DNA of 32,742 nt, from contig JBAWZF010000034.1 in assembly GCA_037143175.1 (NCBI GenBank), positions 1 through 32,742 of the forward strand, written 5' to 3'. The stretch comes from a bacterium. GTDB taxonomy: Bacteria; Verrucomicrobiota; Kiritimatiellia; CAIKKV01; CAITUY01. Below, piece by piece: positions 3,474 through 13,342 of the stretch (the first letter of the stretch is position 1; every line of letters starts with the position of its first letter). Under the pieces are notes generated by a model. That model ran no database searches. It worked only from the letters and a program-made list of their open reading frames with translations, and was not told where the DNA came from. The position numbers and the translations under genes were made by a program.

Positions 3474-5262
3474 ATGAAAAATACACCCAAAAAAGCCAAT
3501 CGCCATTCGAGTTCCACATGCCCGTGTGACAACACGTTGATGATTAGCGTGATAGATTCGAAGGAAGTTTCCCGTTTCGACTCCCTTATGGGTACATTTC
3601 ACTATCTTGGCGAGAGCCGCCCGGTGGGTGATACCTTGAGGATGGTTGCCCATCGAGGCGAAGAATGGCTTGGATTATTGATGTGGGGCTCAGCGGCCTA
3701 TCGGTTGAAAGATCGCGATATTCATATCGGGTGGACTCCTACACAGTGTGCGCAACGCCAGAAGCTTATCGTGCAGAATCGCCGGTTTCTATTACTGGGC
3801 GAGCGTGGCGAGCATCCGAACCTTGCCTCACAGATACTCGGAGCAGTCGTACGTGAATTGCCGGGCCTCTGGCTTGAGAGGTTCGGTTATCAGCCATTGC
3901 TCGCCGAGACGTTCACGGATATCGAAGCCTATGCCGGCACTTGTTATAAAGCGTCAGGTTGGTTGCCGCTGGGTATGACGAAAGGCTTTTCCCGGCACCG
4001 TGCTGATTTCTACGTTCCAAATGACCGGCCAAAAAAACTCTGGATCCGCGAATTGTATCCGAAGGCAGCGCAGGTGTTGCGGGCATCGGAGCTTCCGGCT
4101 GTTTGCCAAAAGGGATCCCATAGTAATGCTGACGGGGTTTTGCCTATCACCCGTGGACAACTTGAATCGTTACACGCTGCACTTTGCAAGGTTCCAGATC
4201 CCCGAGCCTCCAACCGCGGCTTTCACATTGGTGCGGTGTTGTCCATCGTGGCTATGGCCATTTTCAGCGGTCATCGCAGCATTGCGGCGATTGAGCGGTT
4301 TGCCGGACGACTCCGTCATGACCAGCGTGTAGCACTTGGGCTGCCTCGTTTCGGCAAAGGCAATTATCGCAAACCCCCAAAATACAAGGTGTTCTATAAC
4401 CTGCTTGCGAAACTTGATGTCAATCGCTTTGCCGAACTACTAAACGCGTGGTTGACTCACCATCGAGGCACTCTTCCCGTCGCGCTGGCACTCGATGGTA
4501 AGTTTATCCGTGATACGGTCGGCCTGGTCTGTATGAGTGAACACGATACCGGAGTGCCACACGCCATGCGCAAGGCCAGCCAGAAAGAGGGCGAAGGAGC
4601 TGATTGCGAGTTAAAGGCGGCACAAACTATGATCGAACTGCAATCCGACCTGTCTCACGCCATTATTACGGCCGACGCACTTAATTGCCAAACGCGCACA
4701 GCTCAGGAAATCGTCGCACGGGGCGGTGAATATCTCATTCAAACCAAGGGCAACCAGAAAACCATTCATGAAAGCACCATCGCAAAAACTGAAGGACTCC
4801 CCCCCCCCTTTTGCCCAAACTGAAAAAGCACACGCCCGAATCGACGACCGATCCATCTCCCTCTGCTCAGTCGATCCGCTCGAGATAGGCTTTCCTCATG
4901 TCCAGACGGTTATCCGCGTCACCCGCGACTCAACAGCTTACAAGAAACCCGAAGACAAGACTCCCGGCTATTACCTCAGTTCCGCGCCTATTGATCGCTA
5001 TACACCACAACAATGGCTGAGCCTCGTCCGTGGCCATTGGGACGGTTGCGAAATCCGCAATCATTGGCGCAAGGACGCATGCCTCCTGGAGGATAAGACC
5101 CCAAGCCGTAACCCCAATATCGTAGCCTCGCTCGCCCTTGTGCGTAATTGCCTGTTCCTCTTCCTTGAACAAAACTCAGAAACCCATAATATCAATGCTT
5201 TCACAGAGGATATTGCAGCAAATTCACGCAAAGCTTTCCGCATGGTTATGCGCAATTCATGA
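3474..5262 (+). pseudogene. DUF4338-ISAs1 transposase, frameshifted at a C10 tract
   Basis: The first frame runs 3474-4823 (449 aa); the rest continues in the +1 frame to 5262. Deleting one C from the run at 4799-4808 would restore a 595-aa protein. Residues about 25-190 are a DUF4338 domain (FHYLG, RPVG, HIGWTP, NRRFLLL, NLASQILG, ETFTD, YAGTCYKASGW), the domain of the Druantia protein DruA. Residues about 215-595 are an ISAs1/H-repeat type DDE transposase: an N-terminal associated region (DPRASNRGFHIGAVLSIV), first Asp in ALDGK (D341), second in ITADAL (D401), and the Glu in RGHWDGCEIRN (E526 of the restored protein). All three catalytic acids therefore survive if the frame is restored. Whether the shift is a decay mutation, a sequencing error in the homopolymer, or slippage used on purpose cannot be decided here. 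ATG 3540 is an alternative start. Confidence 0.85.
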
Positions 5263-5531: not shown

Positions 5532-6945
5532 CTACTGTCGCAACAGCTTAAGAGCCTGTGCGACGGTCATGCGACGGCACCATGATTTGCAGCCGTTTGC
5601 CCCCGCTTTCCCAAATGAGTTCTGGATTTCATAGCTGATGAAGCAGGCGTTGCGCCCGATCAAGGATACCGCTTTGGTTCCCCTTTAACCCGAACAGGTA
5701 GTCCCAGCCTTTTTCCTGGGTTGTAACCCGTGCGCTTTCCTGTTGGCAGTGCATCGAATCAGCCGTGATCAGGGCATAATCAACGTTTGGAAGATCGCGA
5801 AGGAGTTGGGGATAGGCGGGAATTTCATTGCTCTTATCCTCGATCGGAATTTGGGCCAACGTCAACCGCAACCGGTGTGTTACAGCCGAGAGCAATTGGA
5901 GCGGTTTGCCATCGGTTCTTGCGCTGCCGCGCAGTGTCTTGCCATCAACAGCCAAACGTGCAACCACCGATAACTCCTGCTCCAGCAGCCATTCGCCGAC
6001 AATGCGGTCAAACTGCTGCGTGTCAACCTTGCTCAGCACGTGATAAAACGTTGAGTCGCTGGGGGACAGATAGTTACCTTCCTTGTTCTTCTGACACCCC
6101 AAAGCGCGAAGTTGGCGTTGTGTGAACTTGCGACAGGTGTCTTCGATCGGTTGATAGCCACCTGCGCCCATCAATACCGCAACAGCGGCGCACGCGAGTA
6201 CAAACGGCTGACGATGTCGCAACCCGTGCCCCCCTCGTCCGTCGCGCAATTCCCGAAAACAGTCGAGCAACGATTCGAGATCTGGCGCGCGCCATGGACA
6301 GGGCCCGGCGACATGCTCCTCATGCTCAGCCATGGCCTCAGACCAGCGCCCACGCCGTAACAATGCGTACGCCCCGGGCTGCAACTCCTTTATGTAGAGT
6401 TGTTTCGGTTCCCCGTGCTCATGATAGAAGTCACGGCTTGCACGCTTGAATCCAGCCGTTGGCCCCACGGCGTCAAAACCACAAGCGCGGTAGCAAACAC
6501 CACGATAGCGGGTCTCATCCACAAAACTTTCAACCACCAGCACGGGATGTCCCCACTGTTCCTCCCAGTCGCGAGACACGCGCCGCAGGCATAACCCCAG
6601 GGCTCGCGATGCCAAGTTCGGCAACCGTTCCCGTTCCGGCAGAACAAGATAACGACTATTATTCACAATAAACCCGAGCCGTCGAGCCCGCTGCCGGGGC
6701 GACCATCCAATCCGCTTCTCCCGCGCCTTAAGATGCAGAGCTGCTGCACTGAAACAGGCCAAAGCAACCCACTCACCATCAAGTTCTGCAACGTAACGCA
6801 ACGTTCTGCCAACCATCCGGGCACTGCACAGGTAATGCTTTTGCTCCATTATCTCGTCGAACCGCAGACGCTCATCTTCGCGCAGCAGTCGTACCGTCAC
6901 ACGCTTCAGGATCTCTGGCTCAGGGGCTAATTCGTGTCGTTTCAT
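5532..6945 (-). pseudogene. DUF4338-ISAs1 transposase, C-terminally broken
   Basis: An open frame from ATG 6945 (or 7008) to a TGA at 5629-5631. ATG 6945 is preferred because it lies about 70 bp inside the terminal repeat, as in copy 1. The DUF4338 domain is clear (QKHYLCSARMVGRTL, RIGWSP, NNSRYLVLP, NLASRALG, VESFVDETRYRGVCYRACGF), followed by the transposase-associated region (LRDGRGGHGLRHRQPF) and two catalytic aspartates (AVDGKTLRG, LITADSMHC). The protein ends at LKGNQSGILDRAQRLLHQL, about 150 residues short, so the RGHW...E region is missing. In the next frame, 5633 to 5532 encodes a 33-aa stretch ending CRRMTVAQALKLLRQ that resembles the usual Arg/Leu-rich tail of such transposases. 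This suggests an internal deletion of roughly 110 codons; that reconstruction is inference. Confidence 0.8.
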
Positions 6946-7014
6946 GCCTCTGAGGTAACAAACGAGAAAACCATGTCCTGTCATTTCGCGAAGCGTCTCA
7001 TGAGCCATGGATCA

Positions 7015-10662: not shown

Positions 10663-10724
10663 GTAGCCCTGAAATCAAAAACGACATTGACGTACACCTG
10701 TTTTTTTTGACAAATTACATCTTA

Positions 10725-10841
10725 ATGAAAGTGACGTTATCCATCGAGCATACATCGACCAATCTCAGCTCCCTGCTGCGAGTGGAAGGCGTCTGCCTGC
10801 TTTTATCGAAAAGCAGCTTGCGGTGGAACGGGCACAACTAA
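10725..10841 (+). CDS. leucine-rich leader peptide of leuA (leuL-like)
   Basis: A 38-codon frame starting ATG at 10725 and ending TAA at 10839-10841. Eight codons are leucine, with two adjacent at 10773-10778 and three in a row (CTG CTT TTA) at 10797-10805. Those three overlap the 5' arm of a hairpin, as expected for a ribosome-stalling control peptide. It lies in front of an intrinsic terminator and leuA. Weak point: no Shine-Dalgarno sequence precedes the ATG, so the peptide may be leaderless or start at a later codon such as GTG 10782, which would keep the Leu triplet. Two -35-like hexamers (TTGACG at 10687, TTGACA at 10707) occur upstream, but neither has a good -10. Confidence 0.6.
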   Translation: MKVTLSIEHTSTNLSSLLRVEGVCLLLSKSSLRWNGHN

Positions 10842-10897
10842 CTGGTTGCAATCCAGATTGAAAGCCAAACCCACCGTAAATCAGCGGTGGGTTTTTT
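10797..10897 (+). promoter_or_regulatory. transcription attenuator of leuA-aroE
   Basis: Three mutually exclusive pairings can be drawn. Segment 1:2 is CTGCTTTT (10797-10804) with AAAAGCAG (10809-10816), 8 bp around a 4-base loop. Segment 2:3, the antiterminator, is CGGTGG (10821-10826) with CCACCG (10871-10876). Segment 3:4 is the terminator hairpin at 10868-10893 followed by T residues. A ribosome stalled at the Leu codons would cover segment 1 and favour 2:3, allowing read-through into leuA when leucyl-tRNA is short. The arrangement is seen in the sequence; the mechanism is inferred from known leu leaders. Confidence 0.65.
10868..10897 (+). terminator. intrinsic terminator (attenuator terminator) before leuA
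   Basis: AACCCACCG (10868-10876) pairs perfectly with CGGTGGGTT (10885-10893) across an 8-base loop. The T run is 10892-10897. The leuA ribosome-binding site (GGAGG, 10904-10908) follows at once. Confidence 0.82.
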
Positions 10898-10913
10898 CGT
10901 GACGGAGGAAAAC

Positions 10914-12482
10914 ATGAGCACAAAGAATGATAAAGACCGGATAATAATTTTTGACACTACGCTTCGCGATGGCGAACAAGCACCCGGCTGCAGCCTGAAC
11001 CAACGTGAGAAGCTGGAGATTGCCCGAGCCCTCGCCGCGATGAAAGTCGATGTGATCGAGGCAGGCTTTCCCATCGCCTCACCTGACGATTTCGACGCCG
11101 TTAACCAGATCGCCGGAAGCATCAAAGGGCCGACGATTGCCGCCCTCGCCCGCATTATTGAAAAAGACATTGAGCGGGCGGGTCATGCCATTGCCCCGGC
11201 CGCCAAAAAGCGCATCCATACCTTCAGTTCCGGCAGCGACATCCACCTGGTGAATATCATGAAGATGACCCGTGCTCAAAATATCGAGCGCTCGGTCAAG
11301 GCGATCAAATTTGCACTCACGTTTACTGACGACGTTGAATATTCCGCCCAGGATACTACCCGATCCGACCGTGACTATCTGGTGGATCTCTATACCGCGG
11401 TGGCAGAGGCTGGCGCCACCACCCTGAACATCCCGGATACCGTCGGGTACGCCATCCCGGAGGATTACGGAAACATGATCGGCTACATTGCGGAACGCGT
11501 GAAGGCCCAGGTTCCGGGGGTGATCATTTCAGTCCATTGCCATAATGATCTCGGTATGGCCGTAGCGAATTCTCTGGCGGCCGTCCGCGCCGGCGCACGG
11601 CAGGTCGAGTGTACCATAAACGGCCTCGGCGAACGTGCGGGCAACACTTCGTTAGAGGAGATTGTCATGGCAATCCGTACACGTAATGACTACTTCCACC
11701 TCCACACTAATGTGGAAACCAAGGAAATTTTCCGGGTCAGCCGCATGGTCAGCCGTTTGACGGGAATGACCGTTCAACGCAACAAGGCCATTGTGGGCGC
11801 CAACGCCTTTGCTCACGAGTCCGGTGTCCATCAGGATGGTGTCCTCAAAGAACGCACGACGTATGAAATCATGCGCCCTGAAGATATTGGGATCGAAGGC
11901 TCCGATCTCGTCCTGGGCAAACATTCCGGGCGTCATGCGTTCCGCGATAAGCTTGCCAAAATGGGGATAAAGTTAACGGATACCGAAATCGAGAATGCCT
12001 ACCATCGGTTTATCGAACTTGCCGACAAGAAAAAGAACATCTACGACGATGACCTTCTGGCTATCGCCCGGGACCAGATGGACGTGGTCGAAAATGCATT
12101 TATTCTGGACTACCTCCATGTCTCGGCAGGCACCAGCACCATTCCCACCGCTACCCTCCGGCTGAAACGCGGCAAGGAGGTTTTCCAAGATGCCGGATGC
12201 GGCGATGGACCGGTCGATGCGGCACTCAAAACCATTGATCGCATTACCAAGGTTAAGGGCAAGTTACTCGACTTCTCGCTTCAAGCCATCTCGGTTGGCA
12301 AGGATGCCATGGGTGAAGTCACGGTTCGTGTTGCCTTTGGTGATGACATCGTGAGCGCCAAAGCGGCCAGTACGGATATTGTAGAGGCCAGCACCAAAGC
12401 ATACCTTTCCTGCGTCAACCGACTGCTTTTTAACCGTGAGGTCCGAGAGAAAACCCCGAAGACAAAGGAAAGCGGCATATGA
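10914..12482 (+). CDS. leuA: 2-isopropylmalate synthase
   Basis: First committed step of leucine biosynthesis: acetyl-CoA plus 2-oxoisovalerate gives 2-isopropylmalate, in the cytoplasm. The 522-aa length is that of the full bacterial enzyme. The catalytic TIM barrel has FDTTLRDGEQAPG at 13-25 (D14, metal), the VHCHNDLGMA motif with H208 and H210, and N244 in GERAGNTS, which together form the divalent-metal site. The hinge carries GVHQDGVLK and GKHSGRHAF. The C-terminal domain from about 390 is the leucine-binding regulatory domain (LeuA dimer type), so feedback inhibition by leucine is expected. ATG 10914 is chosen because GGAGG lies five bases upstream; a GTG at 10887 inside the terminator is unlikely. 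It overlaps aroE by 4 nt (ATGA). Confidence 0.95.
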   Translation: MSTKNDKDRIIIFDTTLRDGEQAPGCSLNQREKLEIARALAAMKVDVIEAGFPIASPDDFDAVNQIAGSIKGPTIAALARIIEKDIERAGHAIAPAAKKRIHTFSSGSDIHLVNIMKMTRAQNIERSVKAIKFALTFTDDVEYSAQDTTRSDRDYLVDLYTAVAEAGATTLNIPDTVGYAIPEDYGNMIGYIAERVKAQVPGVIISVHCHNDLGMAVANSLAAVRAGARQVECTINGLGERAGNTSLEEIVMAIRTRNDYFHLHTNVETKEIFRVSRMVSRLTGMTVQRNKAIVGANAFAHESGVHQDGVLKERTTYEIMRPEDIGIEGSDLVLGKHSGRHAFRDKLAKMGIKLTDTEIENAYHRFIELADKKKNIYDDDLLAIARDQMDVVENAFILDYLHVSAGTSTIPTATLRLKRGKEVFQDAGCGDGPVDAALKTIDRITKVKGKLLDFSLQAISVGKDAMGEVTVRVAFGDDIVSAKAASTDIVEASTKAYLSCVNRLLFNREVREKTPKTKESGI

Positions 12483-13342
12483 GAGCGCTAAGCGGCCATA
12501 CTCAACCCTTTGCTGTGTTAGGCCACCCCATTGGCCACACCTTGTCGCCCGTCATGCACAATGCTGCCTTGGAGTCATTGAAAATGGATGCTATTTACCT
12601 AGCATTCGATGTTGCCCCGGCGGCGCTACTGACGGTTCTGCCGGCCATGAAGGCCATGGGATTCGGAGGTGTCAATCTCACGGTCCCTTTAAAAGAAGTA
12701 GCCTTTAAGGGACTATCTGATTTGGACGACTCTGCGCGGCGCCTGGGCGCAGTCAACACGGTAGAGTTCACAAATCAGGGGTTACGTGGCCACAACACGG
12801 ACGGCAAAGGCTTTCTGACAGCCATCAAAGAAGCCTTTAATTATTCAATAAAAGGGCAAACCCTGTTTGTGATGGGCTGTGGAGGAGCTGGGCGCGCCGT
12901 GGCCATTACCGCAGCAAGCGAAGGAGCCGAACGCTTGATTCTTGCAGATATCGATGAAGGCCGCTGCCAGAGTGTGGCCCGCGACATTGCGCTCCTGGTA
13001 CCCTCCGCCAAAATCGAAATGGCCGGAACGACTCCGGAGAAATGGGCACAGAAAACCCAGCAAGCAGGCTTGATCATTCAAGCCTCACCAGTGGGAATGA
13101 AAGCCGAGGATGTCTGTCCCCTTCCCCCGTCCGCATTTAAAACAGGGCAACTCGCATTTGACCTTGTCTATAACCGGCCAGAGACCTGTTTCACGCGGGC
13201 GGCTACTGCAAGCGGAGTAAAAGCGGTTAACGGATTGGGCATGCTTTTATATCAGGGGGCCGAAGCCTTCACGATCTGGACAAAAAAAGAGGCCGCTGTT
13301 GAGGTGATGCGAAAGGCCTTGGAGAAAGCCTTGTACGGTTAA
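12479..13342 (+). CDS. aroE: shikimate dehydrogenase
   Basis: A 287-aa NADP-dependent enzyme that reduces 3-dehydroshikimate to shikimate, the fourth step of the shikimate pathway. Seen: the substrate loop LGHPIGHTLSPVMHN at 14-28, NLTVPLKE with catalytic K72, NTDGKGF with D108, the Rossmann glycine motif GCGGAGRA at 133-140, and NGLGMLLYQGAEAF near residue 250, where the conserved Gln contacts shikimate. Its ATG overlaps the leuA stop, so the two are translationally coupled and share the leuA leader. It converges on the methyltransferase gene, and the two stop codons overlap (13339-13342), leaving no room for a terminator between them. Confidence 0.95.
   Translation: MRALSGHTQPFAVLGHPIGHTLSPVMHNAALESLKMDAIYLAFDVAPAALLTVLPAMKAMGFGGVNLTVPLKEVAFKGLSDLDDSARRLGAVNTVEFTNQGLRGHNTDGKGFLTAIKEAFNYSIKGQTLFVMGCGGAGRAVAITAASEGAERLILADIDEGRCQSVARDIALLVPSAKIEMAGTTPEKWAQKTQQAGLIIQASPVGMKAEDVCPLPPSAFKTGQLAFDLVYNRPETCFTRAATASGVKAVNGLGMLLYQGAEAFTIWTKKEAAVEVMRKALEKALYG

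Follow-up and report, generated by a model that had tools for sequence, protein, structure and literature searches.

The leuA locus and its leader

The window, i.e. the whole analysed stretch of 32,742 nucleotides, is one contig of a 3.3-Mb draft genome (107 contigs) of a bacterium from Kiritimatiellia, a class within the PVC group. Both the lineage and the names of the leuA relatives, some of which are metagenome-assembled records under the names Kiritimatiellae and Lentisphaerae bacteria, place the host in the PVC group, as had been considered in the initial annotation. The locus carries leuA followed by aroE (Table 1). The leuA product exceeded the cut-offs of two profiles (NF002086, 746.6 bits with a cut-off of 532; TIGR00973, 679.7 bits with a cut-off of 598.7), and the start of aroE overlaps the stop of leuA (12479); judged from this gene arrangement, the two genes are probably co-transcribed. 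The leader ORF in front of leuA encodes MKVTLSIEHTSTNLSSLLRVEGVCLLLSKSSLRWNGHN, and homologues of this leader are located before leuA in genome G004 and before ilvB in genomes G002 and G005.

Table 1. Features of the leuA leader region and the downstream genes
Feature	Position	Strand	Remarks
Putative -35 box, TTGACG	10687..10692	+	best-scoring promoter upstream of the leader
Putative -10 box, CAAATT	10711..10716	+	weak, poor match to TATAAT; spacer of 18 from TTGACG; ends 8 nt before the leader ATG
Leader ORF	10725..10841	+	ATG at 10725, TAA at 10839-10841; 38 codons, 8 Leu; predicted leaderless
Segment 1, TCCATCG, putative protector	10740..10746	+	paired with CGGTGGA in the predicted fold
Leu-Leu-Leu control codons, CTG CTT TTA	10797..10805	+	form the 5' arm of an 8-bp hairpin (10797-10816) that is not conserved
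Segment 2, GCGGTGGA, antiterminator arm	10820..10827	+	inside the 3' end of the leader, codons Leu-Arg-Trp-Asn; predicted to pair with segment 3 or segment 1
Leader stop, TAA	10839..10841	+	12 nt past CGGTGG
Segment 3, AACCCACCG, terminator 5' arm and antiterminator partner	10868..10876	+	
Segment 4, CGGTGGGTT and T run, intrinsic terminator	10885..10897	+	covaries with segment 3 class-wide
leuA ribosome-binding site, GGAGGA	10904..10909	+	
leuA, 2-isopropylmalate synthase	10914..12482	+	putative regulated gene; two NCBIfam cut-offs exceeded
aroE, shikimate dehydrogenase	12479..13342	+	TIGR00507, 210.1 bits, cut-off 200.2

The initial annotation had described a 38-codon frame with eight Leu codons, three of them in a row, a CGGTGG segment able to pair with the 5' arm of a terminator, and a perfect 9-bp terminator with a T run directly before the leuA ribosome-binding site. 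All of these were found in place: the CGGTGG core of segment 2 lies at 10821-10826, 15 nt behind the Leu run, and the terminator stem is formed by AACCCACCG and CGGTGGGTT (10885-10893), with six T residues at 10892-10897. The window was scanned on both strands for an ORF with Leu-Leu-Leu and at least five Leu codons, combined with a terminator and a segment that can pair with the terminator 5' arm over 6 nt or more; exactly one match was obtained, and none in 40 dinucleotide shuffles.

The region 10740-10905 folded at -60.1 kcal/mol (z -3.5), and none of 200 shuffles was equally stable. Such a stable and structured 5' region would also suit a riboswitch or a protein-binding leader responding to leucine or to an intermediate of the pathway, with the ORF being incidental. 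However, no Rfam family matched at its gathering score in the window or in 20 relatives, alignment A1 contains no conserved aptamer-like core, and the conserved elements are an in-frame Leu/Val-rich ORF, the geometry of start and promoter, and simple competing arms, so we regard a leader of either kind as highly improbable. Five weak matches (E 1.4 to 9.8) appeared in the Rfam scans, all to unrelated families and below the gathering scores. Two further long ORFs of the window, at 3474-4823 (+) and 5629-7008 (-), appeared by eye to be related transposase-type genes in opposite orientations, with HYLxxxRxVG-type and LAxDGKxxR-type stretches in common.

Promoter geometry and predicted leaderless start

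In most relatives a TTGAC[ACGT] motif is spaced from the leader start as it is in the window. In a promoter search that was blind to the start codon, the -10 box ended 4-11 nt (mode 7) before an in-frame ATG or GTG in 63 of 72 loci, as compared to 0 of 72 for each other frame. A promoter at an in-frame start was found for 64 of 68 leaders as compared to 10 of 42 ordinary genes of the same genomes, the leader starts for this count having been chosen downstream of the promoter, which makes 63 of 72 the fairer figure. A motif like the Shine-Dalgarno sequence precedes 4 of the 68 leaders versus 31 of 44 leuA genes. The leaders of Kiritimatiellia are thus probably leaderless, as far as start geometry can tell. 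The missing Shine-Dalgarno of the leader had been considered the weak point of the attenuator reading, but it loses this weight, as transcription is predicted to begin at the leader start itself. The promoter of the window was missed by a sigma-70 consensus scan because of its weak -10 box. With leaderless starts a Shine-Dalgarno sequence is not needed to recognise the leaders, and annotation that seeks such a sequence and longer ORFs will have missed them.

Distribution in Kiritimatiellia and amino-acid specificity

The upstream regions of leuA in 102 genomes of the class and of ilvB in 32 were examined. At 72 loci a leader ORF was present whose end lies shortly upstream of a terminator, and 68 of these loci were kept (three doubtful ones and one with no usable start were dropped), 44 before leuA and 24 before ilvB, from about 30 families by family labels. 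The leader ORFs mostly have 17-40 codons with segment 2 usually inside, and they vary widely in length and sequence apart from a partly conserved C-terminus (RWNG/RWEG, AVG). Where leuA is first in the operon, the leaders are Leu-rich, e.g. MNFNSNMLLGLLLLLREG and MIRSGLLRRLLLLLLLEG; where leuA directly follows ilvN, no leader precedes leuA and a leader rich in Val and Leu stands before ilvB, e.g. MKSRSSIAPFGTAGLMLQKVEFYLVLVLVLVRAPRWEGGY. The same was seen in leaders chosen blind to composition, by promoter, start and terminator only (39 leuA and 23 ilvB leaders). In this set Leu made up 21.6% of the residues of the leuA leaders, and Val 18.2% in the ilvB leaders versus 6.4% in the leuA leaders (Val+Ile p=3e-9), and Leu was higher in the leuA than in the ilvB leaders (p=0.001), the loci being related by descent so that the p-values here and below overstate their independence. 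Out-of-frame readings of the leaders contained 4-9% Leu. Upstream of hisG, trpE and ilvC the device was found at 0 of 41 loci (14 genomes, with laxer thresholds than for the leaders). The motif CTTAGCGG (Leu-Ser-Gly) recurs near the Leu codons of the leader ORFs L021, L026, L029 and L030, which belong to distant families.

Conservation and covariation of four RNA segments

Four segments recur across the class: CCATCGC or CCATCGT as segment 1 at about nt 15 of many leaders, GCGGTGG or TACGGTGG as segment 2 near the leader end, CCACCGC as segment 3 and GCGGTGGGTTTTTT as segment 4. The segment 2:3 duplex was stronger within its own genome than in swaps between genomes (p=1e-5) and in shuffles (p=5e-13), and likewise the segment 1:2 duplex (p=5e-4 and p=7e-7, respectively), often at a constant place near nt 15. 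Joint changes of segments 1 and 2 occur across the class (GCCATCGTA:TACGGTGGC versus CCCATCGCA:TGCGGTGGGA). Within the window's genus one compensatory pair (T-A/C-G) was found between these two segments, for which chance is not excluded by the shuffles, and the helices hardly vary there, too little for a covariation test. The putative protector arm at nt 15 is absent from many loci, and segment 1 of the window contains one mispair.

The initial annotation had proposed an alignment of leuA leaders for covariation in the stems and for conserved Leu codons. Segments 3 and 4 covary (A-T 46, G-C 13, G-T 3; p=7e-11, with relatedness not corrected) and Leu-rich leaders are kept, but covariation of segments 2 and 3 was not significant at the two positions tested (p=0.36 and 0.53). 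The 8-bp hairpin over the Leu run, also put forward there, is perfect in the window (CTGCTTTT, 10797-10804, with AAAAGCAG, 10809-10816) but, according to alignment A1, is not kept in G004, the closest relative that shares this leader, and its role as functional segment 1 was rejected. The putative protector arm CCATCGC at about nt 15 had been overlooked. The pairings support TCCATCG near the leader start, rather than the Leu-codon hairpin, as the arm that would compete for CGGTGG. The central proposal, a Leu-type attenuator before leuA, gained support: relatives keeping neither the Leu run nor the alternative stems had been named as the evidence against it, but in the relatives the terminator, the antiterminator arm and a leader rich in Leu are all retained.

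Small genes also end in intrinsic terminators, and the ORF might be an ordinary gene of a small hydrophobic protein with its own terminator, leuA having a separate promoter downstream. Some members of the family (G003, G004, G007 and G013) indeed have a TATAAT-like box after the terminator, but class-wide it occurs at 7 of 41 loci with 12 expected in shuffles, and it is absent in the window; moreover, this explanation accounts neither for the segments that could refold the terminator nor for the Val/Leu switch with operon content. We give it hardly any credence, and the TATAAT box was rejected as a general second promoter for want of class-wide enrichment. At L187, L002, L189 and L188, which represent the window's family plus one close relative, the terminator is followed after about 10-20 nt by a CTATAATG box, possibly a weak second promoter; the window lacks this box, and across the class it is not enriched.

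Proposed attenuation mechanism

The device is, in our assessment, very probably a ribosome-mediated transcription attenuator by which leucine supply would control leuA(-aroE). Of the parts of a classical attenuator, an ORF rich in codons of the end product is present (8 of 38 codons in the window, with which the class-wide composition agrees), as is an intrinsic terminator between the leader and the first gene (10868-10897); an antiterminator arm that is freed by a stall and covered at the stop is indicated at the level of sequence and folding. From these parts we infer the following course of events, from the transcription start through translation of the leader and ribosome stalling to termination and its response to leucine. 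Transcription would begin on the leader AUG or no more than a few bases away from it, and a 70S ribosome would initiate on the leaderless end with no need of a Shine-Dalgarno sequence. When charged Leu-tRNA is plentiful, the ribosome would reach the stop at 10839-10841 and, terminating there, cover CGGTGG in segment 2, so that segment 3 pairs with segment 4 and transcription ends before leuA. When Leu-tRNA is scarce, the ribosome would stall in the Leu codons, chiefly at 10797-10805 and about 15 nt upstream of segment 2, leaving segment 2 to pair with segment 3 as the antiterminator, and leuA would be transcribed. With no ribosome, pairing of segment 1 with segment 2 could favour termination, and segment 1 might in addition mask the region around the start. 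As segment 1 is a long way upstream of the control codons, there is no obvious way for a stalled ribosome to keep it off segment 2.

The ribosome was modelled as a 31-nt mask, and the nascent RNA was folded up to segment 3. The mean upstream pairing of segment 3 across the class was 0.68 with the mask on the control codons versus 0.38 with the mask at the stop (p=9e-9), and 44 loci were for and 6 against this contrast. In the window the values were 0.61 in the stalled state, with the mask on the earlier Leu group LSSLL and not on the LLL run, versus 0.13 at the stop. With no ribosome the class mean was 0.41 and the window value 0.63, as in the stalled state, and because of this value the protector of the window may be weak in the folding model.

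A translated leader could also gate the terminator while sensing how fast translation runs in general or how many ribosomes are available, or the ribosome could be arrested by the nascent peptide, with charged Leu-tRNA playing no part. The C-terminus of the leader is partly conserved as a peptide, and the exit tunnel could be a site of action for hydrophobic Leu/Val stretches; however, it is segment 2 that encodes the conserved C-terminal residues, so that RNA pairing explains them, the leaders are otherwise widely variable in length and sequence, and their composition tracks the operon, with Leu for leuA and Val plus Leu for ilvBN-leuA. We consider a speed-sensing or arresting leader unlikely, and sensing of charged Leu-tRNA remains our preferred reading.

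Origin of the leuA leader in the genus

In the window's genus, G002, G003 and G005 carry ilvBN-leuA with the leader before ilvB (in G005 on another contig), and the window genome G000 and G004 carry the leader before leuA and ilvB elsewhere. In the leuA tree, G000 and G004 form a clade (support 94/92) inside a group of ilvBN-leuA genomes. The leader peptides align, with NLSTMLRTDGVTLALVLVGGLRWEVCI before ilvB in G002, HSTLLRLDGVCLLVLARGTRWNGRI before leuA in G004 and NLSSLLRVEGVCLLLSKSSLRWNGHN in the window, and TAACTATAATGC after the terminator is kept in G004 as before ilvB in G003. The tree and the aligned peptides suggest that the leuA leader of this genus probably descends from the Val/Leu leader of an ilvBN-leuA operon, in which ilvBN was lost and Val codons were later changed to Leu. 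On the scale of the class, it seems likely to us that the PVC group harbours a class-wide family of leaderless branched-chain attenuators, in which loss of ilvBN leaves a Val/Leu leader before leuA whose Val codons are then replaced by Leu codons. If true, this retuning from Val to Leu after the loss of ilvBN is a natural test of the codon-sensing model. The series from leuA-only to ilvBN-leuA operons offers a natural experiment on the change of attenuator specificity. An ilvB with an N-terminal extension and no leader was also observed in the window genome (L191, contig C64), like those in G004, G028, G041 and G052, and may be a substitute for the ilvBN that the leuA operon lost.

Comparison with known attenuators and wider occurrence

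The leu attenuator of the E. coli/Salmonella type (Rfam Leu_leader, Proteobacteria) combines a Leu-rich leader ORF with a competing antiterminator and an intrinsic terminator before leuA. The Kiritimatiellia device has the same build, but it differs in having scattered control codons, a segment 2 internal to the ORF, a putative protector close to the start of the leader and probably no 5' UTR. The Leu_leader family had no match in the window at its gathering score or at E<=10, and none in 20 relatives.

In the ilvBNC attenuator of C. glutamicum (ilvB-II motif), the start codon of a 15-residue leader is one nucleotide from the transcription start, and anti-antiterminator, antiterminator and terminator hairpins are formed, the first of which can shield the start (PMC11857589, PMC10272879). 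Common to this attenuator and the device described here are a branched-chain leader peptide, a start next to the (here predicted) transcription start and competing hairpins; the former, however, is from Actinobacteria with 15 residues, whereas the Kiritimatiellia ORF is mostly longer and different in sequence, with segment 2 usually inside. The LeuL, IlvL and TrpL leader peptides of Streptomyces lividans are encoded on leaderless transcripts (PMC8079986), and trpL of Sinorhizobium meliloti is a leaderless attenuator leader as well (PMC7298713). They resemble the Kiritimatiellia leaders, as predicted, in being leaderless attenuator peptides but belong to other phyla, and the Streptomyces leuA leader (LeuL1), unlike the Kiritimatiellia device, is without a typical terminator. 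The LEU element before leuA of Actinobacteria is a pseudoknot whose base stem is formed by Leu codons and the leuA Shine-Dalgarno, other attenuator parts being missing (PMC1262725); both have a run of Leu codons in an ORF before leuA, but only the Kiritimatiellia device has a terminator. The pairing of the LEU element was not found in the window, where the Leu run CTGCTTTTA is complementary to GGAGGA over a few bases only.

Cysteine-rich upstream ORFs have been proposed as attenuators in mycobacteria (PMC4633059), and uORF attenuation of ilvB has been argued to be common (PMC10272879). At the time of a 2010 survey, leader-peptide attenuators were known only from Proteobacteria and Actinobacteria, to which the survey added one case from Firmicutes (PMC2965389). 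In the open-licence literature we found no description of attenuators or leader peptides in Kiritimatiellia, Verrucomicrobia or Planctomycetes. Leader-peptide attenuation and leaderless leaders are known from elsewhere; what appears to be new is their branch, a PVC class in which the predicted leaderless build is consistent.

The device recurs through this whole PVC class, and hints of a parallel design exist in Planctomycetota, cultured organisms among them. At leuA loci of Planctomycetota, short ORFs rich in Leu (e.g. MRSLLLNLSLLLLPT) stand in front of a terminator, often CCTGAGGC..GCCTCAGGGTTTTTT, namely at L092, L097, L108, L103 (Thalassoglobus neptunius), L082, L072, L063, L071, L087, L094 and L107. 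This design is apparently parallel and unrelated to the Kiritimatiellia device. L092, L097 and L108 have CCTGAGCC within the Leu codons and GCCTCAGG past the stop, and several of the Planctomycetota leader starts lie just after a -10 box.
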